A stretch of DNA of 20,455 nucleotides from positions 1-20,455 of IMG/VR virus record IMGVR_UViG_3300026116_000110. The stretch is one strand, 5' to 3'. Below the pieces are notes generated by a model. The model was given only the letters and a program-made list of their open reading frames with translations. It made no database searches and was not told the DNA's origin. Positions within the stretch are counted from its first letter, which is position 1. The number at the start of each line of letters is the position of its first letter. Of this stretch, positions 857 through 13,999 are shown one piece after another. The translations under genes and the position numbers were made by a program. This DNA is from a virus.

Positions 857-2075
857 GGTTCAGCTACCCGAATGGGGCGGCCTACTATGGGATGATTTCC
901 GCCACCTTGGGCTGCATGGCGGACGAGCGGCGGCGAAGTCTCGCTCGATCGCAACAGCGCTGGTCATTCAGGCTGCAGAACGGCATGAGCGCGTTCTGTG
1001 TGGGCGTGAAATCCAGAAGTCGATCAAGGACAGCGTGAAACGACTGCTGGATGACGAGATCAGGCGCCTTGGTCTGTCCAGCGTGTTCGATAGCGTGGAA
1101 ACAGAGATACGCGGCCCGAACGACAGCCTGTTCCTGTTCTCCGGCATAAAGGGCAACGCGACGGGCATCAAGTCTATCGAGGGCATAACCACATTCTGGG
1201 GTGAGGAGGCGCAGACCTTCAGCCAGGCCAGCATTGAAACGGTCATCCCGACTATCCGCGCGCCGAACAGCCGGCTGATATGGTCGTGGAACCCGGACCT
1301 TGAAACAGACCCGATCGATGTGCTGTTTCGCGGGCCGAACGGCGCCCCGCCCCGCTCCATCGTGCGTGAAGTCAATTATGATGAGAACCCATGGTTTCCC
1401 GAGGAACTACGGGCGGAAATGGAATATGACCGTTCCCGCGATTACGACAAATACGAGCATGTATGGCTGGGCAAATACCGCCGCAACAGCGAAGCGCGCG
1501 TGTTCAAGAACTGGCGCGTCGAGGCGTTCGATAGCCCGGCCAATGTCGAATATAGGATGGGCGCGGACTTCGGTTTCAGTGTTGACCCATCCTGCGCTCT
1601 GCGCTGCTGGATAGATGGCACACGTATCTTCGTGGACTATGAGGCGTGGGGCCTAGGCATCGAGATCATGGCGCTGCCTGCCCTGTTCATGACGATCCCG
1701 GACGCTGAGAAATACTGGATGACGGCGGACAGCGCGCGGCCGGAAACGATCAGCCACCTTCGCAATCATGGCTTCCCCCGCATCGCTCCAGCCTTGAAGG
1801 GCGCGCGCTCATTGGAAGAAGGCGTCGAGTTCCTGAAGGGCTATGACATCGTCGTGCATCCGCGCTGCCAGCATGTGATCGATGAACTGACGCACTACAG
1901 CTACAAGGTTGATCCCTTGACCGGACAGGTGCTTGGCGTGCTTGAGGACAAGAACAACCACCTGATCGACGCGCTGCGCTATGCGGTTGAAGGCGCACGC
2001 CGGGCATTAAACGCAAAGCCGCGTGTCGTGTCGGTCACAGTGCCCAGCCTTGCGACGGCTTTCAATCGCCGCTGA
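849..2075 (+). CDS. terL: Terminase large subunit, PBSX/Sf6-type ATPase-nuclease
   Basis: This is the packaging motor: an N-terminal ATPase translocates DNA through the portal and a C-terminal RNase H-like nuclease cuts the concatemer. At 408 residues it is shorter than Sf6 gp2 (about 470). Visible motifs: Walker A G-G-R-A-A-A-K-S at 24-31; the following R-E-I-Q-K-S-I-K-D-S-V (53-63) is typical of the family; Walker B and catalytic glutamate F-W-G-E-E-A with E119/E120; W-N-P after the ATPase core. Nuclease acidic residues fit D240 (A-D-F-G-F), D294 (T-A-D-S-A-R-P-E) and D374 (N-H-L-I-D-A-L-R-Y). Start ATG 849 overlaps the small-terminase stop by 8 bases. Oddity: Walker A has alanines where Sf6 has G-S-G before K-S. 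Confidence 0.95.
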   Translation: MLEVQLPEWGGLLWDDFRHLGLHGGRAAAKSRSIATALVIQAAERHERVLCGREIQKSIKDSVKRLLDDEIRRLGLSSVFDSVETEIRGPNDSLFLFSGIKGNATGIKSIEGITTFWGEEAQTFSQASIETVIPTIRAPNSRLIWSWNPDLETDPIDVLFRGPNGAPPRSIVREVNYDENPWFPEELRAEMEYDRSRDYDKYEHVWLGKYRRNSEARVFKNWRVEAFDSPANVEYRMGADFGFSVDPSCALRCWIDGTRIFVDYEAWGLGIEIMALPALFMTIPDAEKYWMTADSARPETISHLRNHGFPRIAPALKGARSLEEGVEFLKGYDIVVHPRCQHVIDELTHYSYKVDPLTGQVLGVLEDKNNHLIDALRYAVEGARRALNAKPRVVSVTVPSLATAFNRR

Positions 2076-2080
2076 CCAGT

Positions 2081-2094
2081 GGTATAGGGATACC
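2081..2094. repeat. GGTAT-N4-ATACC inverted repeat, copy 1
   Basis: A perfect 5-base inverted repeat GGTAT/ATACC around AGGG, extendable to GTGGTAT/ATACCGC (2079-2096) with a G-T wobble. It begins 6 bases after the large-terminase stop. The same element occurs in the spacers before the coat gene and before the gp14-like gene, and I found no further exact copy in the window. No T-run follows, so it is not a standard intrinsic terminator. It may be an RNA hairpin or a dimeric-protein operator. Confidence 0.7.
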
Positions 2095-2101
2095 GCCTGA
2101 C

Positions 2102-2137
2102 CGCACCCCAGGCGCTCGCTTGATAAGCAGGGGTGCG
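2102..2137 (+). promoter_or_regulatory. Hairpin covering the portal ribosome-binding site
   Basis: CGCACCCC (2102-2109) is fully complementary to GGGGTGCG (2130-2137), with a 20-base loop. The 3' arm contains most of the AGGGG (2129-2133) that is the best Shine-Dalgarno candidate for the portal TTG start at 2140. Folding would hide the ribosome site and lower portal synthesis. This is read directly from sequence; the regulatory effect is inferred. Confidence 0.6.
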
Positions 2138-2139
2138 CC

Positions 2140-4197
2140 TTGACGACTGATACCGAAGCCGATCCGCCCGTTCTCCAAAGGGCGCTTCTCCAGTTTAACA
2201 CGATTAGCAGTGCGCTGCGTGACGAGCGCATGTTGTCGCTTGAGGATCGCCGCTTCCTGTCGATCGCGGGGGCGCAATGGGAAGGCGATTGGGGCGCGCA
2301 GTTCGAGAACGGCATTCGCGTCCAGATCAACAAGACCCAGCGCGGCCATGACAAGATCATCAACGACTATCGGGCCAATCGCTTCACGGTCAATTTCCGC
2401 CCGGTCGATAATGGCGCGAACGACGACACATCAGAATTGCTCAACGGCCTGCTCTATGCCGACATCTACCGTTCCAAGGGGCAGCAGGCGTTCGACAATG
2501 CCTTTGCCGAAGGTTCTGCGGGCGGCATGGGAGCATGGCGCCTGTGCAACGAGTATGAGGACGAATACGACCCGGACAACGATCATCAGCGTATCGGCAT
2601 TTACCAGATCGTGGATGCTGACCAGCGCGTGTTCTTCGACCTTGACGCCAAGCTCTACGACAAGTCGGATGCTCGTTATGCCTATGTGATGCACAGCATG
2701 ACGCCGGAAGCCTTCAAGGAGGAATATGGCGACGAGCGGCTTTCTTCATGGCCGGAAAATCGCCTGCGCACCAACTGGTTCGACTGGTTCCGCCCCACGG
2801 TCGTCTATGTCGCGGAATATTACGAGGTTGAGGAACGCAACGAGGAGTTGCGCATCTACAGCCGCAAGGCGACGGGTGAGGAATATCGCTACTGGTCGTC
2901 CGAAGTCACGGACGAGATGGCGCAGGATCTGAAGAACCGTGGCTTCGAGGTCCGCAAGAGCCGCAAGGTGAAGCGCAAGCGCGTGCACAAGTGGCTGCTG
3001 TCCGGTGCCGAGGTGCTGGAGGATTGCGGCTATATCGCCGGTTCCTGCATCCCGATCATTCCCTTCTACGGCAAGCGCGTGTTCATCGACAATATCGAGC
3101 GCGTGAAGGGCCACGTCAGGGACGCGAAAGACCCAGCCCGCGTCTACAACAGCCAGATTTCAAAGCTGGTCGAGACGGCGAGCCTTGCACCGCGCGAGGT
3201 GCCGATCTTCGCGCCCGAACAGATGGAGGGCCTGGGCAAGCATTGGGAGCGAATGAACATCGACCGCCATCCCTATGCGCTGGCGCACCCGCTGACCGAT
3301 CCCATGACAGGCAACATCATCCAGTCCGGACCTGTCGCCTATCTCAAGCCGCCAGACCTTCCGCCCGTGCTGGGGACGCTGATCCAGCAGACCGGCGCGG
3401 ACATCGCGGAAATCACCAATGGCGATGACGGGTCGATGGAGATCAAGTCCAACGTTTCAGCCGAGGCGATGGACATTGCCAGCAGCCGGGTAGACGCGAA
3501 ATCCTTCATCTACATGGACAACTTCCGCCAGTCGATGCAGCGCTTCGGCGAGGTTTACTACGCCATGGCGAAGGAGGTTTACGTCGAGGAAGGCCGCGAG
3601 GTCCAGACGATGGACGAGGACGGCGAGACCGAAACCGCCACACTGCACGAGCTTTACACCGATCCGAATACCAAGGCGCACGGCAAGCGCTATGACCTGT
3701 CGGTTGGCCGGTTCAATGTCATTGCCGATGTGACCGAAGCCACATCCACGCGGCGCGACAAGACGGTTCGCACGATGATGGCGCTGGCGCAGGCGTCGAC
3801 CGCCGTCCAGGCTCCGCAGATCGGGCAGGCCGCATTGCTGACTGCGATCAAGAACATGGACGGCGAAGGCATCGACGGGTTCCAGGACTTCGCGCACAAG
3901 ATGGCGGTGCAGCTTGGTCTCGATGAGTTGACGCCGGAAGAGCAGCAGCAGGCACAGGGTCAGCAGCAGCAACCCGATCCGCAATCGATCACGCTTCTGG
4001 CGCAGGCCAAGGCGCTGGAGGCGCAGGCGGGTAAACTGGAGGCTGATACCAAGCTCAGCAATGCCAAGGTGGTGCAGACGCTGGCCGACGCCCAGAAGAC
4101 GGCGAACGAGGCAGGGCAGATTGCCCAGCAGCCATTGCCGGATCAGGGCGCGAATCAGCAGCCTTCTATCGTTCCTGATATGTCAAGAGCAGCTTGA
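2140..4197 (+). CDS. Portal protein, P22-like
   Basis: The portal is a dodecameric ring at one capsid vertex; it is the DNA channel, docks the terminase and later carries the tail. The 685-residue length is close to P22 gp1 (725) and Sf6. The N-terminal part has the family's W-E-G-D-W segment after a helical region, the middle is rich in tryptophan and aromatics, and residues about 590-660 form a Gln/Ala-rich helical C-terminus (E-E-Q-Q-Q-A-Q-G-Q-Q-Q-Q, then A-K-A-L-E-A-Q-A-G-K-L-E-A-D) that fits the long coiled-coil barrel of P22-type portals. The start is TTG 2140, 6 bases after AGGGG; the first internal ATG is some 30 residues later, inside what appears conserved. The weak TTG and the overlapping hairpin suggest restrained translation, suitable for a 12-copy protein. 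Confidence 0.9.
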   Translation: MTTDTEADPPVLQRALLQFNTISSALRDERMLSLEDRRFLSIAGAQWEGDWGAQFENGIRVQINKTQRGHDKIINDYRANRFTVNFRPVDNGANDDTSELLNGLLYADIYRSKGQQAFDNAFAEGSAGGMGAWRLCNEYEDEYDPDNDHQRIGIYQIVDADQRVFFDLDAKLYDKSDARYAYVMHSMTPEAFKEEYGDERLSSWPENRLRTNWFDWFRPTVVYVAEYYEVEERNEELRIYSRKATGEEYRYWSSEVTDEMAQDLKNRGFEVRKSRKVKRKRVHKWLLSGAEVLEDCGYIAGSCIPIIPFYGKRVFIDNIERVKGHVRDAKDPARVYNSQISKLVETASLAPREVPIFAPEQMEGLGKHWERMNIDRHPYALAHPLTDPMTGNIIQSGPVAYLKPPDLPPVLGTLIQQTGADIAEITNGDDGSMEIKSNVSAEAMDIASSRVDAKSFIYMDNFRQSMQRFGEVYYAMAKEVYVEEGREVQTMDEDGETETATLHELYTDPNTKAHGKRYDLSVGRFNVIADVTEATSTRRDKTVRTMMALAQASTAVQAPQIGQAALLTAIKNMDGEGIDGFQDFAHKMAVQLGLDELTPEEQQQAQGQQQQPDPQSITLLAQAKALEAQAGKLEADTKLSNAKVVQTLADAQKTANEAGQIAQQPLPDQGANQQPSIVPDMSRAA

Positions 4198-4254
4198 TGC
4201 GAAGTTGCGAAACTGATATGCAAAATGGGCTGAACAACTACCAGCGGGGATCGC

Positions 4255-5058
4255 ATGGATAACGAAGAATTGCCGCTCATCGAGGGCGAGGACGTTCTTG
4301 ATCTGACGACCGTTCAGGAGATTGAGGTTGGGGATGAGGGCGAAGAAGCCCTTATAGGGTTCGCGGACGAGGAAGGGGCGGAAGAGGAAGAAACGCCCGT
4401 CATCAAGCGCCTGCGCGAACAGAACCGCGAACTGGCCAAGAAGCTGCGCCAGCGCAATGTGCCGCAGAATGACACGACCGATCCTGAACCCGTCATCCCC
4501 GCCAAGCCGACACTTGCGGATTTCGACTATGACCCGGATCGCTTCGAAGCGGCGATGGATGGCTATGTCGCGGCCAAGGACGATCATCTGGCATGGCAGC
4601 GGCGAGAGGATCAGCGCAAGGCATCACAGGGCCAGCAGCAGGAAGAGCGCGCCCGCAAGATCGAAAAGCAGAAGTCCGCGCTGGGTGTGCGGGATTTCGA
4701 TGAGCGGGCGGCAGAGGTCAAGGACCGCCTGTCCGAAGCCCAGCTTGCCATCCTGATCGAGGGCGCCGATGACCCGGCCCGTCTGATTTATGCGCTCGGA
4801 CGCTCGGCAACAAGGCTCGAAATGCTGGCAGGTGAAGAGAACATGGCCAAGTTCGCAGTCATGATCGGCCGCCTGGAAAAGGATATCAAGGTGAGCAAGA
4901 AAACCCCTCCCGCACCTGAATCCGGGCGCGTTCGCGGCGCTACGGCATCCCTGTCCATGGGAGACAAGGAGTTGGATCGGCTGGAGAAGGAGGCGGAAAA
5001 GACCGGCGATCGGTCCAAGATTATTGCCTATAACAGGGCCAAGCGTCAGGCGGCTTGA
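4255..5058 (+). CDS. Scaffolding protein, P22 gp8-like by position and composition
   Basis: Scaffolds direct coat assembly into a procapsid and then leave. This 267-residue protein lies exactly where P22 gp8 (303 residues) lies, between portal and coat. Residues 1-45 are strongly acidic (E/D-rich, including G-A-E-E-E-E-T), 46-66 form a charged heptad-like helix (I-K-R-L-R-E-Q-N-R-E-L-A-K-K-L-R-Q), the middle is Gln/Glu/Lys-rich and helical, and the C-terminus is basic (R-S-K-I-I-A-Y-N-R-A-K-R-Q-A-A), as expected for the coat-binding helix-turn-helix end of gp8. There is no membrane segment. Start ATG 4255 follows GGGG (4246-4249). Sequence similarity to P22 is not obvious by eye, so the call rests on synteny, charge pattern and length. 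Confidence 0.8.
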   Translation: MDNEELPLIEGEDVLDLTTVQEIEVGDEGEEALIGFADEEGAEEEETPVIKRLREQNRELAKKLRQRNVPQNDTTDPEPVIPAKPTLADFDYDPDRFEAAMDGYVAAKDDHLAWQRREDQRKASQGQQQEERARKIEKQKSALGVRDFDERAAEVKDRLSEAQLAILIEGADDPARLIYALGRSATRLEMLAGEENMAKFAVMIGRLEKDIKVSKKTPPAPESGRVRGATASLSMGDKELDRLEKEAEKTGDRSKIIAYNRAKRQAA

Positions 5059-5068
5059 TTAAATCCAT

Positions 5069-5096
5069 GGCGGGTGGTATCTGAATACCGCTCGCC
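5069..5096 (+). promoter_or_regulatory. 12-bp stem-loop in the coat-gene leader, containing GGTAT-N4-ATACC copy 2
   Basis: The left arm (5069-5080) and right arm (5085-5096) pair along all 12 positions, with two G-T wobbles and a four-base CTGA loop. The top of the stem is the repeated GGTAT/ATACC element (5076-5089), extended to GTGGTAT/ATACCGC exactly as in copy 1. It starts 11 bases after the scaffold stop. No U-tract follows (next bases ACTATTC), so it is more likely a processing, stability or protein-binding structure than an intrinsic terminator. Confidence 0.7.
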
Positions 5097-5144
5097 ACTA
5101 TTCAGCGACCACCGGCTGCAACAGGTGAGAGGCAGGCAAAGCCC

Positions 5145-5159
5145 CGGAGCGCGCCTCCG
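5145..5159 (+). promoter_or_regulatory. Second hairpin in the coat leader
   Basis: CGGAG (5145-5149) pairs with CTCCG (5155-5159) around a five-base loop. It lies about 25 bases upstream of the coat Shine-Dalgarno GAGG (5184-5187). A longer-range alternative pairs AAAGCC (5138-5143) with GGCTTT (5186-5191), which would enclose this hairpin and cover half of the ribosome site. The whole 133-base spacer 5059-5191 holds no plausible gene and appears to be a structured leader. Confidence 0.45.
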
Positions 5160-5191
5160 AGATCGGATCAATCCCTTTCTCGTGAGGCTTT

Positions 5192-6454
5192 ATGTCCAAC
5201 AATTTCAGCAAAGAAGAGCGCGTTGCGTTCGACCAGGTCTTTGAAAAGTTCGAAGATGGCCTGGTGGTTTCCAAACTGTTCAACAAGTATCAGCTTGACG
5301 ATGTGACCGCCGAGCGTACGGGCAACACCATCTGGCGCCCGATGCCATACATTGCGCAGTCGTTTACTGGCCTTGACCAGTCGGCCAACTTCAACCGCAA
5401 CTATACCCAGCTTTCGGTTCCTACCACGCTCGGATACACGCATTCGGTCCCGCTAACCCTGTCGGCCACTGAACTGCGCGACATGCTACAGGAAAAGCGT
5501 CTGGGTGAAGCGGCGATGCAGCGGCTTGCCAGCGATATCAACGTGGATTGCTCGAACCTCGCCGCCATGACCGGCACGGTGTTCGTCAAGCGTTCGTCGG
5601 CTGCGTCAGGCTTCGATGATCTCGCGGCCTGCGACAACGCCTTCAACCGCGTTGGTGTTCCTATGGATAGCCGCAAGGCGCTACTGTCGTCGGGCGATTA
5701 TAACAGCATGGCTTCGAACCTCGCTGCTTCGACCCGCTCGTTCGGCAATGACATTTCCGATCCGGCCCTTCGCAAGGCCTATGTCGGTCCTGTCGCGGGC
5801 TTTGAGACCTACAAGCTCGACTATGCATATCGCAAAGCCGCTGCCGCAGGTTCGGGAACCACGCTCAACGCCGCCAATCAATATTACACTCCGAAGGCGA
5901 CCAGCACGGCGGCAACGGGGCAGACCAGCAACGTTGACAACCGTTTCCAGCAGATCACGGTCAATTCGACCACCAACGTTGCGGCGGGCGATGCCTTCAC
6001 CATCGCGGGCGTCAACGAGTTCCACCACATCACCAAGGCGGATACCGGATCGTCCAAGACCTTCCGCGTCATCTCGGTGGATTCCAGCACCACGATGACG
6101 ATCAGCCCACCGATCATCTCTGGCGGCGGCGGCACTGATCCTGAGCTTCAATATCAGAACGTCTCGGCCACCCCGGCTTCGACGGCTGCGATCACCTGGC
6201 TCAACACGGTTGCCGGTTCGGTCAACCCGTTCTGGCAGGCTGACGCTTTCGAGATCATGCCAGGCAACTATCGTCCGAACGAAGATGCCGGCCTTGCGAT
6301 CCTGCGGGCGACGACTGCGCAGGGTGTGACCGTCACCATGGCCCGCCAGGGCGCGATCGGCGACATGTCCTGCAAATATCGCTGGGACGTGTTCTACGGC
6401 CTCGTCAACAAGCAGCCAGAAATGACCGGCGCCATGATGTTCAGCCAGAGCTAA
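5192..6454 (+). CDS. Major capsid (coat) protein, P22 gp5-like with I-domain
   Basis: The coat builds the icosahedral shell (HK97 fold). At 420 residues it is close to P22 gp5 (430) and Sf6 gp5. Recognisable pieces are N-T-I-W-R-P-M-P near residue 44 (P22 has N-T-I-W-M-P-V) and, from residue 247, N-V-D-N-R-F-Q-Q-I-T-V followed by G-D-A-F-T-I-A-G-V and later T-M-T-I-S-P-P. These align with the P22 coat stretch N-V-D-N-R-F-A-T-V-T-L, G-D-K-I-S-F-A-G-V and V-E-I-T-P-K-P. That is the telokin-like insertion (I) domain of P22-type coats, here roughly residues 220-330. The C-terminus keeps N-P-F-W-Q-A-D-A and W-D-V-F-Y-G. Start ATG 5192 follows GAGG at 5184-5187. Its 133-base structured leader suggests special control of this most abundant virion protein. 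Confidence 0.95.
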   Translation: MSNNFSKEERVAFDQVFEKFEDGLVVSKLFNKYQLDDVTAERTGNTIWRPMPYIAQSFTGLDQSANFNRNYTQLSVPTTLGYTHSVPLTLSATELRDMLQEKRLGEAAMQRLASDINVDCSNLAAMTGTVFVKRSSAASGFDDLAACDNAFNRVGVPMDSRKALLSSGDYNSMASNLAASTRSFGNDISDPALRKAYVGPVAGFETYKLDYAYRKAAAAGSGTTLNAANQYYTPKATSTAATGQTSNVDNRFQQITVNSTTNVAAGDAFTIAGVNEFHHITKADTGSSKTFRVISVDSSTTMTISPPIISGGGGTDPELQYQNVSATPASTAAITWLNTVAGSVNPFWQADAFEIMPGNYRPNEDAGLAILRATTAQGVTVTMARQGAIGDMSCKYRWDVFYGLVNKQPEMTGAMMFSQS

Positions 6455-6469
6455 GGGGAGTAACAGACA

Positions 6470-7063
6470 ATGGCATCCACTTACGTTGCTCCGTATACGC
6501 AGAAGACCCTCACGGTTTCCGCGTCGAACAAGCTCGCTACCTACAGCGCGGCGGCCTATCAGGTCGACAAGCAGGTAGGCTATCCAACCTTCCCGGCCAC
6601 GATCAACAACGTGTTTGCCGGGTCTGGCGGCAATGTGACCACGGCATTCTCTGCCGCAACTGTCGTGATCATCACGGCGGGTGCTCAGGCGGTGTTCTAT
6701 AATCAGGGCACCGACGCCACGGTCTACGAGCGCGGCAATTACCAGCCGACGCCCGGCACGCTGAACGCCACCGGCACGCTTACCATTGCTCTGATCCAGG
6801 GTGGTATCGTTACCTCCACGACTGCCGCAGCAGTGACGGCCACGCTCGACACCGGAACGGTCTGTGATGCAGGCCTGACGATGGCGGTTGATGAATCGTT
6901 CGACTGGACCGCGATCAATACTGGCGGCTCCAATGCCTTCACCGTGACGGCTGCGACCGGCCATACGATCGTCGGCGCTGCGGCGGTGGCGGCCAGCACA
7001 TCCGGGCGCTTCCGGACGCGCAAGACGGCTGCGAACACCTTCGTCACCTATCGCTTGTCCTGA
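6470..7063 (+). CDS. Putative capsid decoration or head-fibre protein
   Basis: A 197-residue Thr/Ala/Val/Gly-rich protein immediately after the coat gene, with a strong GGGGAG ribosome site 10 bases before ATG 6470. Composition and alternating polar/hydrophobic runs predict an all-beta virion surface protein. The C-terminal part (G-H-T-I-V-G-A-A-A-V then S-G-R-F-R-T-R-K-T-A and T-Y-R-L) resembles beta-sandwich ends I associate with phage head-decoration and fibre-base proteins, often seen beside coat genes. P22 has no gene here, although related phages carry decoration proteins at this position. No signal peptide or enzymatic motif is visible. The gene is followed by a very stable hairpin, which may limit read-through into the genes beyond it. 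Role inferred from position and composition. Confidence 0.6.
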   Translation: MASTYVAPYTQKTLTVSASNKLATYSAAAYQVDKQVGYPTFPATINNVFAGSGGNVTTAFSAATVVIITAGAQAVFYNQGTDATVYERGNYQPTPGTLNATGTLTIALIQGGIVTSTTAAAVTATLDTGTVCDAGLTMAVDESFDWTAINTGGSNAFTVTAATGHTIVGAAAVAASTSGRFRTRKTAANTFVTYRLS

Positions 7064-7070
7064 TGAATGG

Positions 7071-7092
7071 CGGCGGGGCTTCGGTCCCGCCG
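7071..7092 (+). terminator. UUCG-tetraloop hairpin, candidate attenuator or terminator
   Basis: Bases 7071-7079 pair with 7084-7092 over nine positions (one G-T wobble) around a TTCG loop closed by C-G, the very stable cUUCGg tetraloop. A short CCTTT follows at 7096-7100, much weaker than a true U-tract. It sits 8 bases after the decoration-gene stop and ends 18 bases before the next ATG. It may be a partial terminator or a 3'-end mRNA stabiliser separating high-level coat/decoration output from the accessory genes. Confidence 0.5.
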
Positions 7093-7110
7093 TAACCTTT
7101 GGAGATTCCG

Positions 7111-7320
7111 ATGCAGTTCCCCGCCATGCTCTACAAGCTCGGTTCCATGTTCGAATGGGACGGCGAGATGTTTGATTACGTCATCGTCAATGACGAGGAA
7201 GAGGCGGAGATCGCCATTTCTGATGGCTGGAGTGTCGGCAAGCCTTCCGATCCGCTTGATCATGACGGTGATGGCAAGAAAGTCGGATCTCGCGCCCGCA
7301 AACCGAAGGATGCTGAATAA
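7111..7320 (+). CDS. Small acidic phage protein of unknown function
   Basis: A 69-residue protein. ATG 7111 is preferred over the in-frame TTG 7099 because GGAGA (7101-7105) lies just upstream of the ATG. It begins with an aromatic/hydrophobic stretch (F-P-A-M-L-Y-K-L-G), carries F-E-W-D-G-E-M-F-D-Y-V-I-V, an acidic patch D-E-E-E-A-E, then S-D-G-W, and ends in a basic tail (K-K-V-G-S-R-A-R-K-P-K). Small proteins with this 'W-x-G ... V-x-D-E-x-E ... D-G-W' layout are common in phage head or neck regions, but no function is established that I can name. TAATG overlap (7318-7322) couples it to the next gene. Could be a minor head component or an assembly adaptor. Confidence 0.6.
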   Translation: MQFPAMLYKLGSMFEWDGEMFDYVIVNDEEEAEIAISDGWSVGKPSDPLDHDGDGKKVGSRARKPKDAE

Positions 7321-7772
7321 TGGCGACAAGGCGTTCTCCCGCTTCTCGTCAGGGTACAGTGGTTGTTGATGTAACGACCACGGACGGATTGTCTGAGAGG
7401 CTTGGTGCGCAGGGCGTTGTCCTTGTCGATCCGTCTTCTGGCGGCCCGATGGGGACGAACTCTATTCCAACCATCACTCAGGCGGCACAGACATCCTACA
7501 CCCTTGCTACCAATGCGACGATAACGGCCACCACCGGAACGACGCCTGTTACCAGCATTGCGAAGGGCAATTATGTGTGGAACGCTGTTTTTACCGGGAC
7601 ATCGGTAAAACTCCAGTCTCTTGGCGCTGATGGCTCCACATGGTTTGATGTCGCCACGCTTTCTGCGTCAGGCATCTTTGCCGGTGAAATTCGCCTTGGG
7701 TCTAATGCACAGATCCGTCTCTACAATCCGAACGGCACCAGCGACACTGGCGTCTATTCGAGCCTAAGCTAA
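7320..7772 (+). CDS. Putative minor virion beta-sandwich protein
   Basis: A 150-residue protein starting at ATG 7320, overlapping the previous TAA as TAATG. Residues 1-45 are a low-complexity lead with R-R-S-P-A-S-R. The rest is Thr/Ser/Gly-rich beta sequence: about residues 80-150 read G-N-Y-V-W-N-A-V-F, V-K-L-Q-S-L-G-A-D-G-S-T-W-F-D-V, then G-S-N-A-Q-I-R-L and G-V-Y-S-S-L-S. That is a beta-sandwich pattern I associate with short phage head-fibre or decoration proteins. It is coupled by TAATG (7770-7774) to the NodB-like gene, so the two are probably made together and could assemble together. Codons here look more T-rich than in the terminase and portal genes, hinting at separate acquisition. 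No catalytic motif seen. Confidence 0.55.
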   Translation: MATRRSPASRQGTVVVDVTTTDGLSERLGAQGVVLVDPSSGGPMGTNSIPTITQAAQTSYTLATNATITATTGTTPVTSIAKGNYVWNAVFTGTSVKLQSLGADGSTWFDVATLSASGIFAGEIRLGSNAQIRLYNPNGTSDTGVYSSLS

Positions 7773-9061
7773 TGGCTGTCACTGCCTGGGCCAGCGGCTT
7801 CCCTCCGGTTCCAGCGCTTCCGGCTGCATCGGCGCCTACCGTCGTTATCGCGAACGGTGCGACATGGACTGCTGCCTCCGGCGTGTCGGTCAACAACGCA
7901 GCAACCTTTTCAAAATCGCACCCATCAGGCCGCACGACTGGCAATCTGATGACGAAGAACCCGACATCGGGCACCTTCGGAGGTGAGCGGGCTACGTCAG
8001 TTCCCGGCAGTTTCAAACTATCGGATTATGCGATCGTCGGCATGGACGTGCTGACCAACATCATCGCCGGGTCTGTCACCATCCGATTTTCGTCAGACAA
8101 TTTCGCAACGAAGCGCGTGGAATATAGCTGGCCCTTCCCGTCTCAAGTCTACAATGGGGATTGGCAGCGCCTGACGGCCCGCGTGCTGGCGGATACGTCC
8201 GGCATCGATCCCAACGGCGCGTGGGTTGTCACAGGCGGTATGGCGATGACGGAAGTCGTCAATGCCGTTCAGATCAGCATTGCGACCACAGCGAACGACG
8301 CATGTACGGTTTATGCCGATCAGGTAGTGGCCTTTGCCAACACGCCTGCACGCGGCGCTATGATGTTCGGATTCGACCGCTATTCCGACGCCTCATTGCC
8401 TACCATCGCTCTCCCGCTCGCGCAGAAATATGGCATTACATGCTATGCCGCAGGTGACAGCGGGCTTGTCGCCAGCAAGGGAGATGCGTGGGCGAGGGTC
8501 AAGCAACTCCATGATGCAGGCTGGCCTATCCTTAGCCAAGGCCCGGATCACAAGGATTATGTGGTTGCTGGCGCGGCTCAGCTTACAGCGGATGTAGCGT
8601 CATCCCGTGCGACATTCCAGAACGTCGGGTTAACCAACGCCCTCAATTATTTTGCCTATCCCTATAGCAGTAATAACACCTCCACTGACGCCGCGCTGCT
8701 GGCTGCTGGTTTCAGGATGGCATCCACCGGGATCGGATGGAATGGTCACCCGAACGAATATAATCTCGGCTTCAAGTTGATCGGGCAGGGTCGCCAGAAT
8801 ATCGGCGGCATGACGCTGGCGCAGGTAAAGGCCCTTATCGATCGGGCCGCGCTCTATGGCGTGGTGGTGGATCTGTTCTGTCATGGACTGGTCGCAGGAG
8901 GCGATGGGACAACCCCTCCAGCTGATACGCTGACATGGTATGCCAATGACTGGGATGCGGCTATTGCCTATGCTGCTGGTTATCAGGCGGCTGGCCGTTT
9001 AGACATTACCAACCCGGTCGCGCTATTTGCCGCTCGCGGCTCTATCCCGGTGGTCGCTTGA
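7772..9061 (+). CDS. NodB-like (polysaccharide deacetylase-related) virion protein with altered metal ligands
   Basis: A 429-residue protein in two parts. Residues about 1-190 are a beta-rich, carbohydrate-binding-like domain. Residues about 195-429 follow the carbohydrate esterase family 4 (NodB) motif order: motif 1 at F-D-R (201-203, normally T-F-D-D); motif 2 S-Q-G-P-D-H (255-260, normally S-H-T-x-x-H); motif 3 Y-F-A-Y-P-Y (293-298, normally R-x-P-Y/F-x-Y-P-Y-G-like); motif 5 L-F-C-H-G with H371. The likely catalytic Asp202 and His371 and one metal-ligand His260 are kept, but the second Asp is Arg203 and the first His is Gln256. Metal-dependent deacetylation may therefore be lost or changed, leaving a sugar-binding role. 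ATG 7772 overlaps the upstream stop (TAATG). It is unusual between coat and tail-completion genes, where P22 has nothing comparable. Confidence 0.72.
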   Translation: MAVTAWASGFPPVPALPAASAPTVVIANGATWTAASGVSVNNAATFSKSHPSGRTTGNLMTKNPTSGTFGGERATSVPGSFKLSDYAIVGMDVLTNIIAGSVTIRFSSDNFATKRVEYSWPFPSQVYNGDWQRLTARVLADTSGIDPNGAWVVTGGMAMTEVVNAVQISIATTANDACTVYADQVVAFANTPARGAMMFGFDRYSDASLPTIALPLAQKYGITCYAAGDSGLVASKGDAWARVKQLHDAGWPILSQGPDHKDYVVAGAAQLTADVASSRATFQNVGLTNALNYFAYPYSSNNTSTDAALLAAGFRMASTGIGWNGHPNEYNLGFKLIGQGRQNIGGMTLAQVKALIDRAALYGVVVDLFCHGLVAGGDGTTPPADTLTWYANDWDAAIAYAAGYQAAGRLDITNPVALFAARGSIPVVA

Positions 9062-9062
9062 T

Positions 9063-9791
9063 ATGACTGTAATCTGGAACCCCAAAGACCCGGCTGAAAC
9101 GGTTGCCTATCTGGATGACTGGTCCGGTGAACTGGGGAATGACAGCATCGCCTCCTATGTGTTCGCGGTTTCGTCGGGAACGGCGACGATCGCCAAGCAG
9201 CAGATGGAAGCCCGCGCCCTCACCTTCTGGATAGCTGGCGGCACGAACGCGGCCACCACTACCTTCACCTGCACGGTCACGACCAGCACGGGGCAGATCC
9301 TCCAGCGCGTCTATTCGCTCTATGTAGAGACGGGGGCGAACAGCTATCAGCCGACCAGCACGACCAAGCGGCAGCTGGTGGAACAGATGTTCATCGAATG
9401 CGCGGTCAACGGCTGGGAATATGACATCACCGCCGACGAGAAGGATGTGGCCCTGGCCCGCCTTGACGCGCTCATGTGGGAGCTTCGTGGGCGGGGTATT
9501 GATATCGGATACAATTTCCCGCTCGGTATCGGCCAAGGCGATCTGGATGATGTTCTGGGCTGCCCGGATCAGGCGTTCTATGGCCTCTCAGTGCTTGGAG
9601 CCGAGCGCCTTTGCCCGACCATGGGGAAGAAGCAGAGCATGGAATCCCGCATTGCTCTGACAGCGGCGATGAAGGCGGTTCGCTCGGCGGCTGTGACGCT
9701 GGTTCCCTCGTCGCAACTTGCGCCGGCCACCCCGATCGGTTCGGGCAACAAGCCCTGGTCATCGCGCTATCCCTTCTCGATGACCAGCTGA
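9063..9791 (+). CDS. Tail accessory protein: Ig-like adaptor domain fused to P22 gp4-like domain
   Basis: P22 gp4 (166 residues) binds under the portal and is the first head-completion factor, retaining the packaged DNA. This 242-residue protein has such a domain in its C-terminal two thirds: T-K-R-Q-L-V-E-Q-M-F (about 100), D-V-A-L-A-R-L-D-A-L-M-W-E-L then G-I-D-I-G-Y, and a tail P-I-G-S-G-N-K-P-W that parallels P22 gp4 M-P-T-G-S-G-N-S. The first 95 residues are an extra beta domain (W-N-P-K-D-P-A-E-T-V, Y-L-D-D-W, F-W-I-A-G-G-T, V-Y-S-L-Y-V) like the Ig-fold fibre-tail adaptor proteins that are usually encoded separately. ATG 9063 follows the previous TGA by one base; a TTG at 9027 would overlap the upstream gene by 35 bases and is less likely. 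Confidence 0.82.
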   Translation: MTVIWNPKDPAETVAYLDDWSGELGNDSIASYVFAVSSGTATIAKQQMEARALTFWIAGGTNAATTTFTCTVTTSTGQILQRVYSLYVETGANSYQPTSTTKRQLVEQMFIECAVNGWEYDITADEKDVALARLDALMWELRGRGIDIGYNFPLGIGQGDLDDVLGCPDQAFYGLSVLGAERLCPTMGKKQSMESRIALTAAMKAVRSAAVTLVPSSQLAPATPIGSGNKPWSSRYPFSMTS

Positions 9792-11182
9792 TGCGCGTGC
9801 CCGTCATCTCTGGTGTGAAGGCAACGGAAAGCGGGGATTTCCTCGTCAGCTATCCGATCAACCGTGACCCGGTGTTGAAGGATACCGGCATTTCGGACGG
9901 ATATCTTGCGCCCCCATTGGGAATCACAGAGGTTGCGAGCGGATACGGCGCCAATCGCGGCGGGATCAACTGGAATGGCGTGTGCTATCGGGTGATGGGC
10001 ACCAGCCTTGTTTCGGTGGGCGAGAATTGGGTGGTAACCGTCCTTGGTGATGTCGGCACCGGCGGCCCGTGCGGTTTCGATTACAGCTTCGATAACCTCA
10101 TCATCAACAGCGGTGACAGGCTCTATTACTGGAACGCCACCGATGGCCTGAGGCAGGTAACCGATCCCGATCTAGGCGAGGTTGTCGATGCGATGTTTGT
10201 CGATGGCTACACCATGACGACCGATGGCACATATCTCGTCGTCACCGAACTGAATGACCCGATGGCGGTCAACCCGCTGAAATATGGCTCGTCGGAAGAT
10301 GACCCTGATCCAGTGACTGGATTGGGCCGGATGCATGGCGAGGTCTATGCCTTCAACCGCAACACGATCCAAGTCTTCCAGAATATCGGCGGATCAGGCT
10401 TCCCGTTCCAGACAGTCAAGACCGCGACCGTCCCTTATGGCTGCGTCGGGCCTCGCGCCAAATGCCAGTTCATCGGCACCTATGCTTTTGTCGGTAGCCA
10501 GAGGAACGCGGGACTTGGCGTCTATCTGCTCGGGGCCGGTGACGCGGCCAAGATCAGCTCGGCCGAAGTTGATGCGGACCTTGACGCCCTGACCGATGAC
10601 GAAAAGGCCGCGCTTTGGGTTGAAGCGCGGGTCCAGAATGACGAACAACGGCTCCTCGTCCATACACCCTACCGTACATGGTCGTTCGCCTCGCAGGTAT
10701 CCAAGCGGTCATCGGTCAAGACCTGGTGCAGCTATGTCACCAGCACGACCGACGCGGGGATCTATGAAGGGCGCGGGCTTGCCTATTGTTACGGCAAATG
10801 GATCGTGGGCAGTTCGACGGGACAGATCGGCTATCTCGATCCGACCACGGCCCAGCATTATGGGCAGGATATCGGCTGGCAGTTCGACACGACGCTTTTC
10901 TACAATGATGGCAATAGGGGCCTTCTGACCGGGATCGAGCTTGTGGGCACGCCGGGGCGCGGAGCGGCCGATGGCCGGATATTCTTCTCATATACCAAGG
11001 ATGGCGAAACCTGGTCGATGGAGCGCGCCACTTCCTCGGGCACCTTGGGCCAGCGGAATAAGCGCCCCGCGTGGCGCCCCGGCATCCGGTTCGAAAATTA
11101 CATGGGCTTGCGCTTCCGTGGCGTCGACGGCTCGCTCATGGGCATTGCCCGCCTTGAATGCGATGTCGAGGCGATGGCATGA
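9791..11182 (+). CDS. Packaged-DNA stabilisation protein, P22 gp10-like
   Basis: In P22, gp10 (472 residues) forms the hexameric hub below gp4 that holds the tail needle and contacts the tailspikes. This 463-residue protein matches in length, gene order and several spots: Y-L-A-P-P-L-G-I-T near residue 38 (P22 has Y-L-R-S-F-P-G-I-T), the V-C-Y-R-V-M-G-T-S-L segment (P22 A-V-Y-R-V-C-G-G-K-L), R-M-H-G-E-V-Y-A-F-N-R-N-T-I-Q-V-F (P22 W-R-D-F-I-V-C-F-G-S-S-T-I-E-Y-F), V-Y-L-L-G-A-G-D-A (P22 V-Y-I-I-G-S-G-Q-A) and W-R-P-G-I-R near the end. The repeated beta-strand pattern fits a propeller-like hub. The frame is open from 9611 but ATG 9791 overlaps the preceding stop (TGATG) and gives the family length. 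The last bases overlap the fibre gene (ATGA 11179-11182). Confidence 0.88.
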   Translation: MRVPVISGVKATESGDFLVSYPINRDPVLKDTGISDGYLAPPLGITEVASGYGANRGGINWNGVCYRVMGTSLVSVGENWVVTVLGDVGTGGPCGFDYSFDNLIINSGDRLYYWNATDGLRQVTDPDLGEVVDAMFVDGYTMTTDGTYLVVTELNDPMAVNPLKYGSSEDDPDPVTGLGRMHGEVYAFNRNTIQVFQNIGGSGFPFQTVKTATVPYGCVGPRAKCQFIGTYAFVGSQRNAGLGVYLLGAGDAAKISSAEVDADLDALTDDEKAALWVEARVQNDEQRLLVHTPYRTWSFASQVSKRSSVKTWCSYVTSTTDAGIYEGRGLAYCYGKWIVGSSTGQIGYLDPTTAQHYGQDIGWQFDTTLFYNDGNRGLLTGIELVGTPGRGAADGRIFFSYTKDGETWSMERATSSGTLGQRNKRPAWRPGIRFENYMGLRFRGVDGSLMGIARLECDVEAMA

Positions 11183-12636
11183 CCCTGCTGAAGACCCGCG
11201 CCCTCACGCGACAGCAGATTGGCCAGTTTGTAGATTCCGAGCGTGGGATAAGAGCATTCGAGGATGTTCAGGCCGACATCATCAACCAGTATGAGGCTAT
11301 TTCCAGCGCATCATTTCTGACCATTAGCACCGAGCCATCCCTTGGTTCCGAACGCGTTTTTACCCCTAGTGGTGATTTCGCCGTGGTGGATGGTGGCCCT
11401 AACACGACCTATTCGCTGTCACTGTCAGACACGGGCATTGCGGCCGGGATCTACGGTGATGCGTCTCACACCCTTGGCATTACCGTTTCTGCGACAGGCA
11501 GGGTTAGCGCGATCAGCAGTTATCTGCTTGTCACCGATAATGTCACGGAAGGTTCGACCAATCTTTACTTCACCATTGCCCGTGCGAGGGGGTCTGTAAG
11601 CGGCGGTCTTGGCATCAGCTACGACAGCATTGCCGGCACAATCGCACTCGACACGGCATCGACGCGGAACACCGATCATGCCAGCGTCACCCTGACAGCA
11701 GGCGCGGGCCTTACAGGTGGTGGAGACATCACCGCCTCCCGCACGTTCGACATAGGCGCGGGAACAGGAATCACCGTCAACGCCAACGATATCGCGATTG
11801 CGACAAACGGCGTGACGGATACATTGCTGCGGCAATCCTCTGGGCTTTCCCTGGTAGGCCGTACGGCCAACTCAACCGGGAATGTCGCGGACATCACAGC
11901 GGCCTCAGACGGCCAGGTAATGCGCCGGGCTGGAACCTCGATCGCTTTTGGTGCAATCGATCTTTCCTCTGCCAACGCAGTGACGAACGCGCTGGCAGCC
12001 GCCAATGGTGGAACGGGGCAATCGTCCTACACGGCGGGCGATTTGCTCTATGCGTCTGGCGCTTCAGCCATTTCCAAACTCGCTATCGGCTCCAACGGCT
12101 ATGTGCTGACCAGCAACGGTTCTGCTCCAGGCTGGACCGCCAATACCGGAACGGGGAATGTCGTAAGGGCAACGCAGCCGCAGTTCACCAATACCATCGG
12201 CGTCGGAACCGCTGCGAGCGCTTCAGGATCTGGCGTATCCTTCCCGGCCACACAATCGCCCAGCACTGACAAGAATACGCTGGATGACTATGAGGAGGAT
12301 GTATGGACGCCAACCGTTACATCCGGTTCCGGCTCGCTCACCAGCTACACGGCATCGGGATATTACACGAAGGTCGGTCGGCACGTTCACGCCACGATCG
12401 TCATCAGCATCACGAATAATGGAACCGGGGCAGGCTCGATAGCTGCCACCCTTCCATTCACGGCTGCATCTGGGCCTCTATGGGTCGGCTCTGGGCGAGA
12501 AAACGCATCGACCGGCAATATGCTGCAAGGCATCCTTGCGTCGGGCGGTTCGGCTGTGACCATCCTTGCCTATAACAACACCTATCCTGGCGGGACCGGC
12601 GCGCAACTTGTTCTGACCATTTCCTATTTCATTTGA
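11179..12636 (+). CDS. Tail fibre or needle-position fibre protein
   Basis: A 485-residue Ser/Thr/Gly/Ala-rich fibre protein. The N-terminal 40 residues are helical (L-T-R-Q-Q-I-G-Q-F, then R-G-I-R-A-F-E-D-V-Q-A-D-I), a type of anchoring helix seen in many phage fibres. The shaft carries typical fibre motifs: T-A-G-A-G-L-T-G-G-G-D-I-T-A-S-R-T-F, A-A-N-G-G-T-G-Q-S-S-Y and L-L-Y-A-S-G. The C-terminus (Y-E-E-D-V-W-T-P-T-V-T-S, G-Y-Y-T-K-V-G-R-H-V) is a common globular tip module. In P22 the gene after gp10 is the tail needle gp26; here that slot holds this fibre, so it may plug the gp10 hub or be a side fibre. ATG 11179 overlaps the gp10-like stop (ATGA). No chaperone gene follows. Confidence 0.78.
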   Translation: MTLLKTRALTRQQIGQFVDSERGIRAFEDVQADIINQYEAISSASFLTISTEPSLGSERVFTPSGDFAVVDGGPNTTYSLSLSDTGIAAGIYGDASHTLGITVSATGRVSAISSYLLVTDNVTEGSTNLYFTIARARGSVSGGLGISYDSIAGTIALDTASTRNTDHASVTLTAGAGLTGGGDITASRTFDIGAGTGITVNANDIAIATNGVTDTLLRQSSGLSLVGRTANSTGNVADITAASDGQVMRRAGTSIAFGAIDLSSANAVTNALAAANGGTGQSSYTAGDLLYASGASAISKLAIGSNGYVLTSNGSAPGWTANTGTGNVVRATQPQFTNTIGVGTAASASGSGVSFPATQSPSTDKNTLDDYEEDVWTPTVTSGSGSLTSYTASGYYTKVGRHVHATIVISITNNGTGAGSIAATLPFTAASGPLWVGSGRENASTGNMLQGILASGGSAVTILAYNNTYPGGTGAQLVLTISYFI

Positions 12637-12653
12637 CGGATTATCTTCAAAGA

Positions 12654-12667
12654 GGTATCAAGATACC
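12654..12667. repeat. GGTAT-N4-ATACC inverted repeat, copy 3
   Basis: GGTAT (12654-12658) and ATACC (12663-12667) flank CAAG, starting 18 bases after the fibre stop; copy 2 also begins 18 bases after its upstream stop. The outer flanks do not extend the stem as they do in copies 1 and 2. A TTGACG at 12633-12638 followed by 17 bases and TATCAA (12656-12661) overlaps it, so a promoter reading is possible. Confidence 0.65.
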
Positions 12668-12677
12668 CGGCAGTTAA

Positions 12678-12712
12678 TGACCAGCGCCAGGTCACTTTGC
12701 TTCGAGGCAAGG
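12678..12712 (+). promoter_or_regulatory. Two adjacent hairpins ahead of the gp14-like start
   Basis: TGACC (12678-12682) pairs with GGTCA (12690-12694). Directly after it, CTTTGC (12695-12700) pairs with GCAAGG (12707-12712) including one wobble. The second loop and stem contain the GAGG (12704-12707) that is the only good ribosome site for the TTG start at 12714, and the stem ends one base before that start. The arrangement parallels the portal leader. Confidence 0.55.
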
Positions 12713-12713
12713 C

Positions 12714-13142
12714 TTGGGCGCGCTGCTACATCTCACGAAAGACGCGGAAGCTGTAAACGCGGTGGTCAACCACCCTGCGGTGCGGCCTTCTTGCGGCCTT
12801 GTGGAGTTGGGTGAACTGGATTTCTCGGAAGTCCTCTCCCGCCCTGAAAATCTCTGCCTCATGGGCGAACATGGCGGATTCCTGCTGCTGTGGAGCGCGC
12901 CACGCGTTCGTGAACTGCATGTGTTCCTGCTGCCGGAAGGCCGGGGTCAATGGGGCTTCAACGCCTGCCCTGAGGTTGTCGACCATGCCCGCGCCCATGG
13001 TGCACAGATGCTGTGGGCGCGGATCGACCCGGCAAAACGCCATCTGGCGATGTTCTCCCGCATCGGCGGCATGAAGCCGACTGGCGAAAAGATCGAAACG
13101 TTTGGCGTCGTTTACGATGTCTATTGCATGGAGGTGCACTGA
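12714..13142 (+). CDS. Putative head-assembly protein with GNAT-like fold, P22 gp14-like by position
   Basis: A 142-residue protein at the position of P22 gp14 (172 residues), just before the gp7-like ejection gene. Its strand/helix pattern suggests an acyl-CoA N-acyltransferase-like fold: a beta region F-L-L-L-W, R-E-L-H-V-F-L-L-P, then G-Q-W-G-F-N-A and a helix V-V-D-H-A-R-A-H-G-A, then L-W-A-R-I-D-P and F-S-R-I-G-G-M-K-P-T-G. A genuine acetyl-CoA R/Q-x-x-G-x-G/A loop is not clear, so catalysis is doubtful. Start is TTG 12714, 6 bases after GAGG; the first internal ATG is about 49 residues in and would remove the core. The 77-base spacer before it carries structured repeats. Family assignment rests mainly on order and fold impression. 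Confidence 0.6.
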   Translation: MGALLHLTKDAEAVNAVVNHPAVRPSCGLVELGELDFSEVLSRPENLCLMGEHGGFLLLWSAPRVRELHVFLLPEGRGQWGFNACPEVVDHARAHGAQMLWARIDPAKRHLAMFSRIGGMKPTGEKIETFGVVYDVYCMEVH

Positions 13143-13999
13143 TGCCTCCTGCAATAGCAGCGGCAGGAATTACGGCGGCGGCTAGTATCGGCGGCGGCAT
13201 CGCCAGCTCGAACGCAACCAAAAAAGCGGCCAATAAGGCGGCTGCGGCTCAGACGGCGGCAGATCAGGCGGCCATTGCCGAACAGCAGCGTCAATATAAC
13301 ACCACCCGCTCCGATCTCATGCCGTGGCAGACTTCCGGTTCCGCCGCGCAGGATCAGATCAACGCGCTGCTTGGCATTTCCACGCCGGTCCAGAAAACCA
13401 CCAATTGGGCCGCCTATGTGCAGGGAAACCCCGATGCGCTGGCCAACTGGAACAGCCTGACGCCCGCACAAAAGGCACAGTTCAACAACGATATGGGCCA
13501 GTTCGGTTCCTACCATTACAGCCAGGACGGCTCGCGGCGGGACTTGTCGGCCTATCAGACCACGACTGGCGGACAAGCTGACCAGCAGGGCGCGATCGAT
13601 GCGCTAAAGGCATCTCCGCTTTATCAGTCGCTGTTCAGCAATGGCGAGAACACGCTGCTGGCCAATGCGTCGGCGACGGGCGGATTACGCGGCGGCAACA
13701 CGGAAAACTCGCTGGCCAATTTCGGCCGCGATACGCTGTCGACCGTCATCCAGAACCAGTTGCAAAACCTGACAGGGGTTTCATCTGCGGGCCAGAATGC
13801 GGCGGCGCAGACCGGCACATTGGGCGCCAATTCGGCCAATGCGATCTCCAACCTTCTTTCAAATAGCGGCACGGCCAACGCGAATGCGGCCCTTGCCAGT
13901 GGGGCAGCGAATGCGGGCGCAATCAATTCCATCGTGGGAACGATTGGCGGACTTGCCGGAAACAAGGATGTCACTAGCTGGGCAGGGAAACTGTTCTGA
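13142..13999 (+). CDS. Internal virion / DNA ejection protein, P22 gp7-like by position
   Basis: P22 gp7, gp20 and gp16 are ejected into the host envelope and form a conduit for DNA. This 285-residue protein is first in that set. It opens with a glycine/alanine hydrophobic segment (A-I-A-A-A-G-I-T-A-A-A-S-I-G-G-G-I-A-S-S), then an Ala/Lys/Gln helix (A-T-K-K-A-A-N-K-A), the motif R-S-D-L-M-P-W, and a Gly/Asn/Ala-rich C-terminus with another weakly hydrophobic glycine stretch (I-V-G-T-I-G-G-L-A-G). Between about residues 88 and 140 is a separate module, W-A-A-Y-V-Q-G-N-P-D-A-L then H-Y-S-Q-D-G-S-R-R-D-L, resembling short NPD/HY-G repeats in other phage and surface proteins. The frame is open from 13013, but ATG 13142 overlaps the upstream TGA (TGATG) and begins the hydrophobic segment. 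Confidence 0.78.
   Translation: MPPAIAAAGITAAASIGGGIASSNATKKAANKAAAAQTAADQAAIAEQQRQYNTTRSDLMPWQTSGSAAQDQINALLGISTPVQKTTNWAAYVQGNPDALANWNSLTPAQKAQFNNDMGQFGSYHYSQDGSRRDLSAYQTTTGGQADQQGAIDALKASPLYQSLFSNGENTLLANASATGGLRGGNTENSLANFGRDTLSTVIQNQLQNLTGVSSAGQNAAAQTGTLGANSANAISNLLSNSGTANANAALASGAANAGAINSIVGTIGGLAGNKDVTSWAGKLF

Follow-up and report, generated by a model that had tools for sequence, protein, structure and literature searches.

A conserved dyad before three virion modules of a P22-type podovirus suggests distributed, lineage-specific late promoters

In the textbook case, P22, one antiterminated promoter turns on all late genes jointly. What, then, is the function of a short inverted repeat that recurs before the portal, coat and ejection genes of a virus whose virion cluster is of the P22 type? 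The question arises from IMG/VR record IMGVR_UViG_3300026116_000110, a virus record of 20455 bases that was analysed whole and is called the window here. According to PHROG assignments, its genes are those of a P22-type podovirus, encoding terminase, portal, scaffold (PHROG 648), coat, head-closure and ejection proteins (PHROG 598 and 917). The closest named portal is that of Sphingopyxis phage VSN-002 with 47% identity, and prophages with related coat and portal genes point to a probable host in the Sphingomonadaceae, the family of Sphingomonas kyeonggiensis. A DNA similarity search of named phages with the coat spacer of the window returned nothing relevant. The relatives used below were gathered through portal and coat similarity, and most of their records are incomplete. 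The genes that concern the repeat are as follows.

2140 to 4197, plus strand: portal gene (PHROG 156)
5192 to 6454, plus strand: major coat gene (PHROG 283, P22 type)
12714 to 13142, plus strand: gp14-like gene, which opens the ejection module
13142 to 13999: DNA ejection gene directly after the gp14-like gene (PHROG 598)

The initial annotation had described exact copies of GGTAT-N4-ATACC in all three long spacers of the operon, and the three copies were recovered with the pattern GGTATNNNNATACC, which has three matches in the window, all in spacers.

2081 to 2094, no strand: repeat copy 1, GGTATAGGGATACC, preceding the portal gene
5076 to 5089, no strand: repeat copy 2, GGTATCTGAATACC, preceding the coat gene
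12654 to 12667, no strand: repeat copy 3, GGTATCAAGATACC, preceding the gp14-like and ejection genes

The absence of copies inside genes was likewise confirmed by zero further matches across the whole window, and the distance of 6–18 bases past a stop proved accurate, the stops at 2075, 5058 and 12636 preceding the first base of the copies by 6, 18 and 18 bases. No other spacer of the window is as long as those with the repeat (64, 133 and 77 bases), and the motif is absent from two shorter ones (57 and 47 bases). Non-coding DNA makes up 2% of the interval, and all three copies fall within that share. No copy of the motif appeared in 100 dinucleotide shuffles of the window, and the background of 66 sites in 197 Mb (60 Sphingomonadaceae genomes) leads to an expectation of 0.007 in 20.5 kb. 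Some palindrome with 5-base arms (gap 0–12) nevertheless reached three copies in 89 of 200 shuffles, for which reason copy number was dropped as sole proof. Since a triplication noticed post hoc is not rare in shuffles, the claim must rest on position and conservation.

The check set beforehand was whether the motif recurs in the same spacers of close relatives or is scattered at random; it recurs in those spacers and is not randomly placed in these genomes. Copies lie in the portal spacers of L004, L005, L006, L007, L008 and L019, in the coat spacers of L005, L007/L023, L008, L019 and L020, and in the gp14/ejection spacers of G001, G002 and G003. Together with the window, the close relatives provide a set of 14 non-redundant copies in which GGTA and TACC are invariant (14/14), giving GGTA-N6-TACC as the conserved unit. 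The 14-mer of copy 2 is identical in the coat spacers of L005, L007/L023, L019 and L020. At positions 5 and 10, 11 of the 14 copies have T/A and the remaining three have T/T, A/A and T/G, without compensation; the inner pair is broken without repair in 2/14. The proposed extension of copies 1 and 2 to GTGGTAT/ATACCGC did not hold, as it requires a T.G pair, and its outer two pairs are unpaired in 5 and 6 of the 14 copies. In the L008 coat spacer the common 14-mer appears in reverse-complement form, with a TTCA loop in place of CTGA, a form to be expected of a symmetric DNA site. When viral and bacterial collections were scanned for the exact 14-mer, most of the matches listed were chance matches, and a scan with a longer pattern (repeat plus portal leader) recovered the known relatives plus three chance matches.

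The surroundings of the repeat resemble a promoter. In nine of the 14 copies TTGNNN precedes the TAT of the repeat by exactly 17 bp (TTGATT, TTGACG four times, TTGCCG, TTGCAA, TTGCGT and TTGACT), and the mean match to TTGACA is 3.6/6 at this offset vs 0.5–2.4 at other offsets. Nine TTG at any one offset were obtained in 0 of 20000 shuffles, a test which, like the other shuffle and permutation tests, assumes independent copies or loci, related sequences having been dereplicated beforehand. The corresponding hexamers of the window are listed here.

2060 to 2065, plus strand: weak −35-like hexamer TTTCAA, 17 bp before the TAT of copy 1
5055 to 5060, plus strand: −35-like hexamer TTGATT, 17 bp before the TAT of copy 2, overlapping the scaffold stop codon
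12633 to 12638, plus strand: −35-like hexamer TTGACG, 17 bp before the TAT of copy 3, overlapping the preceding stop codon

For copy 1 and its nearest relatives the upstream hexamer is only TTTCAA, L005 likewise showing TTTCAA at 17, and the ejection-spacer copies of G001, G002 and G003 carry TTGACW 9 bp upstream, not 17. In the coat copies the preceding TGA stop shares bases with the TTG and may be another reason why the TTG is conserved; unlike these, portal copies (L004, L007, L008 and L019 have TTGNNN at the 17-bp place) carry it in unrelated contexts. The −10 hexamers of the window, TATAGG, TATCTG and TATCAA, are poor, and for this reason a consensus promoter scan of the window did not report the repeat-associated promoters. 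The TTGNNN at 17 bp suggests that the repeat overlaps the −10 of a host-type promoter. The layout read from the sequence is TTGNNN, 17 bp ending in GG, and TATNNN, with the putative −10 inside the repeat and a predicted structured leader next, and the transcription start is predicted at about the first base 3' of ATACC.

These observations bear on whether the repeat acts in DNA or in RNA. The initial annotation had offered selection on pairing and an RNA-processing hairpin beside a dimeric binding site or phage-specific regulatory repeat, and the data separate these options. As an RNA hairpin within a long late transcript, the repeat would be an RNase processing site, a transcript-end stabiliser or an intergenic attenuator. 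In read-through RNA, copy 2 forms a very stable 13-bp hairpin (z = −2.99 for the 138-nt spacer), and the spacers of distant relatives also tend to open with some hairpin. Against this, pair counting over the 14 copies found arm covariation not above shuffled columns, the two copies with a broken inner pair are unrepaired, and for copies 1 and 3 no such hairpin is predicted in their spacers. No intrinsic terminator (G+C-rich stem, T run) was found at any of the three repeats, the U-tract being absent at every copy. A hairpin would also leave the fixed TTG distance and the reverse-complement copy unexplained, and with the −10 inside the repeat a locally started transcript would omit most of it. 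RNA action of the repeat is accordingly improbable, and the copies lend no support to selection on pairing. The dimeric or phage-specific site gained from the same data, namely the invariant outer arms in 14 copies, the uncompensated changes at 5/10, the −35-like hexamer at fixed distance, the presence in the same spacers of relatives and the different repeat that other lineages carry. Because its inner positions vary without compensation, GGTA-N6-TACC reads as a DNA site that a dimer would recognise by its sequence, and not as a hairpin in RNA.

Behind each repeat lies a predicted leader.

2095 to 2139, plus strand: predicted 5' leader of the portal transcript, from sequence and fold, starting at about 2095
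5090 to 5191, plus strand: predicted structured leader of the coat transcript, from sequence and fold
12668 to 12713, plus strand: predicted leader before the gp14-like gene, conserved in G001 (L345) and G002 (L348)

The portal leader contains a stem of GCACCCC (2103–2109) and GGGGTGC (2130–2136) that covers the ribosome-binding site, and the leader with this stem is kept in the portal spacers of L007, L008, L019 and prophage G283. This leader (GACCGCACCCC...GGGGTGCG) is common to the window clade and G283 despite the different repeat of G283; a window-type leader behind another repeat indicates that repeat and leader are separate modules. The coat leader has a stem GCCTC/GAGGC at the ribosome-binding site and a possible pseudoknot formed by CAGC (5103–5106) with GCTG (5115–5118) and CACC (5110–5113) with GGTG (5124–5127), and it looks like a putative element for translational control of coat synthesis. 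The coat leader CAGCGACCTCCGGCTGYGACGGGAGAGAC...GTCTC is conserved in the coat spacers of the window and about 20 relatives (e.g. L022, L025, L027, L037 and L057). The ribosome-binding region has its complement in the 5' segment of this leader, and the two complementary parts vary together from one locus to the next (17.5 vs 14.4, permutation p = 1.4e-4; e.g. CCCCTGCTGTG/CACAGCAGGGG in L352), the window's own value not being above other loci by the same measure. The gp14-like leader reads GGCAGTT...GACC-GCGCC-GGTCA, with a small hairpin adjoining the start codon. Among 4227 Rfam models, none matched the window up to E = 1 and none matched 12 relatives at gathering score; one short relative spacer yielded chance matches only, far under the gathering score.

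More distant relatives, both metagenomic contigs and Sphingomonadaceae prophages, carry other repeated elements that are common within a genome and not between lineages. GTTGC-N5-GCAAC occurs three times in G004, in the portal, coat and ejection spacers, the coat copy with one arm mismatch. TGCCTA-N5-TAGGCA is present in all three spacers of G010 and prophage G283 and in two spacers of G019 and G251, and prophage G277 has GCGTAAAGCCGTCAA in three spacers. Directional elements occur in G013 (CTGTTCAATCGC seven times, in the form CTGTTCAATCGC-N19-TANNNT) and in G008 (TTGTCCAAACGC five times, in the form TTGTCCAAACGC-N19-TANNNT), all on the gene strand. In these two types a TA follows 19–20 bp downstream in 18/22 copies, 15 of them reading TANNNT, and is nearly absent from other offsets, a fixed distance that reads clearly as promoter anatomy; the elements are probably activator-dependent late promoters. 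In L361/L365 (G013) and L363 (G008) the 12-base directional elements, seven and five in number, stand before late modules. Portal and coat spacers are more similar within genomes than between them (11.2 vs 8.5, permutation p = 5e-5, 34 dereplicated loci). Within the host genome that carries G283 (4.6 Mb), TGCCTA-N5-TAGGCA is confined to the three prophage spacers, and its absence elsewhere in that genome indicates a phage regulon, not a host one. The repeats sit at module edges, where they could be boundary sequences aiding module exchange by homologous recombination, but partners could not align because the elements of the lineages differ, and the repeats show promoter-like spacing; such a role is very improbable.

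From this anatomy, GGTA-N6-TACC is probably a 14-bp dyad operator of a lineage-specific dimeric regulator, placed in the −10 of three late promoters. Three separate late promoters would start transcription of the portal, the coat and the gp14/ejection module, with host sigma70-type RNA polymerase beginning immediately downstream of ATACC. The lineage-specific dimeric regulator, most probably a phage product, would bind over the −10 and, given this position of the site, most likely repress the late promoters in the prophage state or early infection. In other lineages this role, at the same places, would fall to another site and another regulator. The second choice of sign is activation or licensing of a weak −10, and positive control stays in play since the directional G013 and G008 types resemble activator sites.

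A site for a late activator or phage-specific initiation factor enabling a weak −10, following the logic of P2 Ogr or Mu C, shares the promoter reading of the main explanation, and the sign alone differs. The poor −10 hexamers agree with it, as do the confinement of the element to late modules and the place of the G013/G008 element, which lies where a class II activator would bind, with the −10 following at 19 bp and no −35. Unlike activators with one fixed position, however, the dyad covers the −10 in the window clade and occupies other core-promoter places in G010, G019 and G004, and a −35-like TTG is present. Activation is a possible but less likely reading.

The repeats might otherwise be operators of a prophage (cI-type) repressor, or elongation-blocking stoperators, across the late genes. 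The relatives are temperate (integrase in G001), a symmetric 14-bp dyad is typical of helix-turn-helix repressors, and the lineage-specific specificity recalls immunity groups. The operators of 434/P22-type helix-turn-helix repressors are 14-bp dyads with 4-bp outer half-sites, and the window site resembles them in its 14-bp symmetry, its 4-bp outer half-sites and its overlap with the core promoter, differing in sequence and in that the window element was not seen at an immunity region. Within the extent of their records, however, the elements of G004, G010, G013, G283 and G277 occur only in late spacers, no copy was seen at early genes in the incomplete records of G001, G003 and G004, and the directional types hold a fixed 19-bp distance to the −10. 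Stoperators are asymmetric and scattered (PMC9262239), unlike the repeat. Operators of this kind are thus an unlikely explanation. For the putative late regulator preferred here, a comparison of the gene content of phages with the same element (mostly incomplete records) gave no convincing candidate gene. Small helix-turn-helix-like proteins were noticed by eye in G010 (L351:18019-18567), in the early region of G283 and in the region before terS of G001. Such DNA-binding-like small proteins before the terminase or in early regions are possible candidate late regulators, none being tied to the site.

Comparison with known systems places the repeat near several of them. In P2, four late promoters share TGT-N12-ACA and are served by the regulator Ogr (PMC3931495). 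The likeness to P2/Smp131 lies in several late promoters per genome, predicted ones in the present case, the same dyad before each virion module and a regulator that would here too be phage-specific; a repeated element per virion module is seen in three spacers of the window and its relatives and at seven sites in G013. The dyad itself differs from the P2 type, being GGTA-N6-TACC instead of TGT-N12-ACA, and it overlaps the −10, whereas the Ogr dyad lies upstream of it, in a window whose genes are P22-type. No Ogr/Delta zinc-finger gene was found among the scanned ORFs of G001 and G003, which comprise part of the small ORFs in mostly incomplete records. Classical P22 has one late promoter under gp23/Q antitermination, and its relatives are generally taken to have the same (PMC8022706). 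Homologous portal, scaffold, coat and ejection genes in similar order link the window to P22/lambda, but the late region here contains three to seven promoter-like sites. The stoperators of cluster A mycobacteriophages are asymmetric 13–14 bp sites throughout the genome (PMC9262239). They share with the repeat a short repeated protein-binding site (binding here being putative) in short intergenic regions of a temperate phage genome. The window site is symmetric, has promoter spacing and is limited to three copies in the late region; a dyad with a reverse-complement form in the L008 coat spacer is not an asymmetric site held in one orientation. The repeat therefore seems to fit none of the P2, P22 and stoperator systems as a member and would work most like distributed late promoters. 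In the literature searched, mostly without subscription papers, no description of such elements was found.

For this P22-type podovirus group, including Sphingomonadaceae prophages, it is about an even call that the single antiterminated late promoter has been replaced by several within the virion cluster, whose lineage-swapped control boxes and leaders able to hide the ribosome-binding site form a diversifying specificity code. At least six element codes were seen, which would be swapped as sets between lineages. The late genes of each lineage would seem to have a lock of their own, the putative docking sequence differing and the places being the same. If true, transcription from the portal, coat and ejection promoters could determine when capsid parts are made and in what relative amounts, the site/regulator pairs would be a natural set of orthogonal late switches, and the sites of a contig would predict phages with a common regulator.

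Between the head and head-closure genes of the window, positions 7772–9061 hold a 429-aa gene that has no PHROG match and whose product, by eye, shows likeness to polysaccharide deacetylase-like enzymes.
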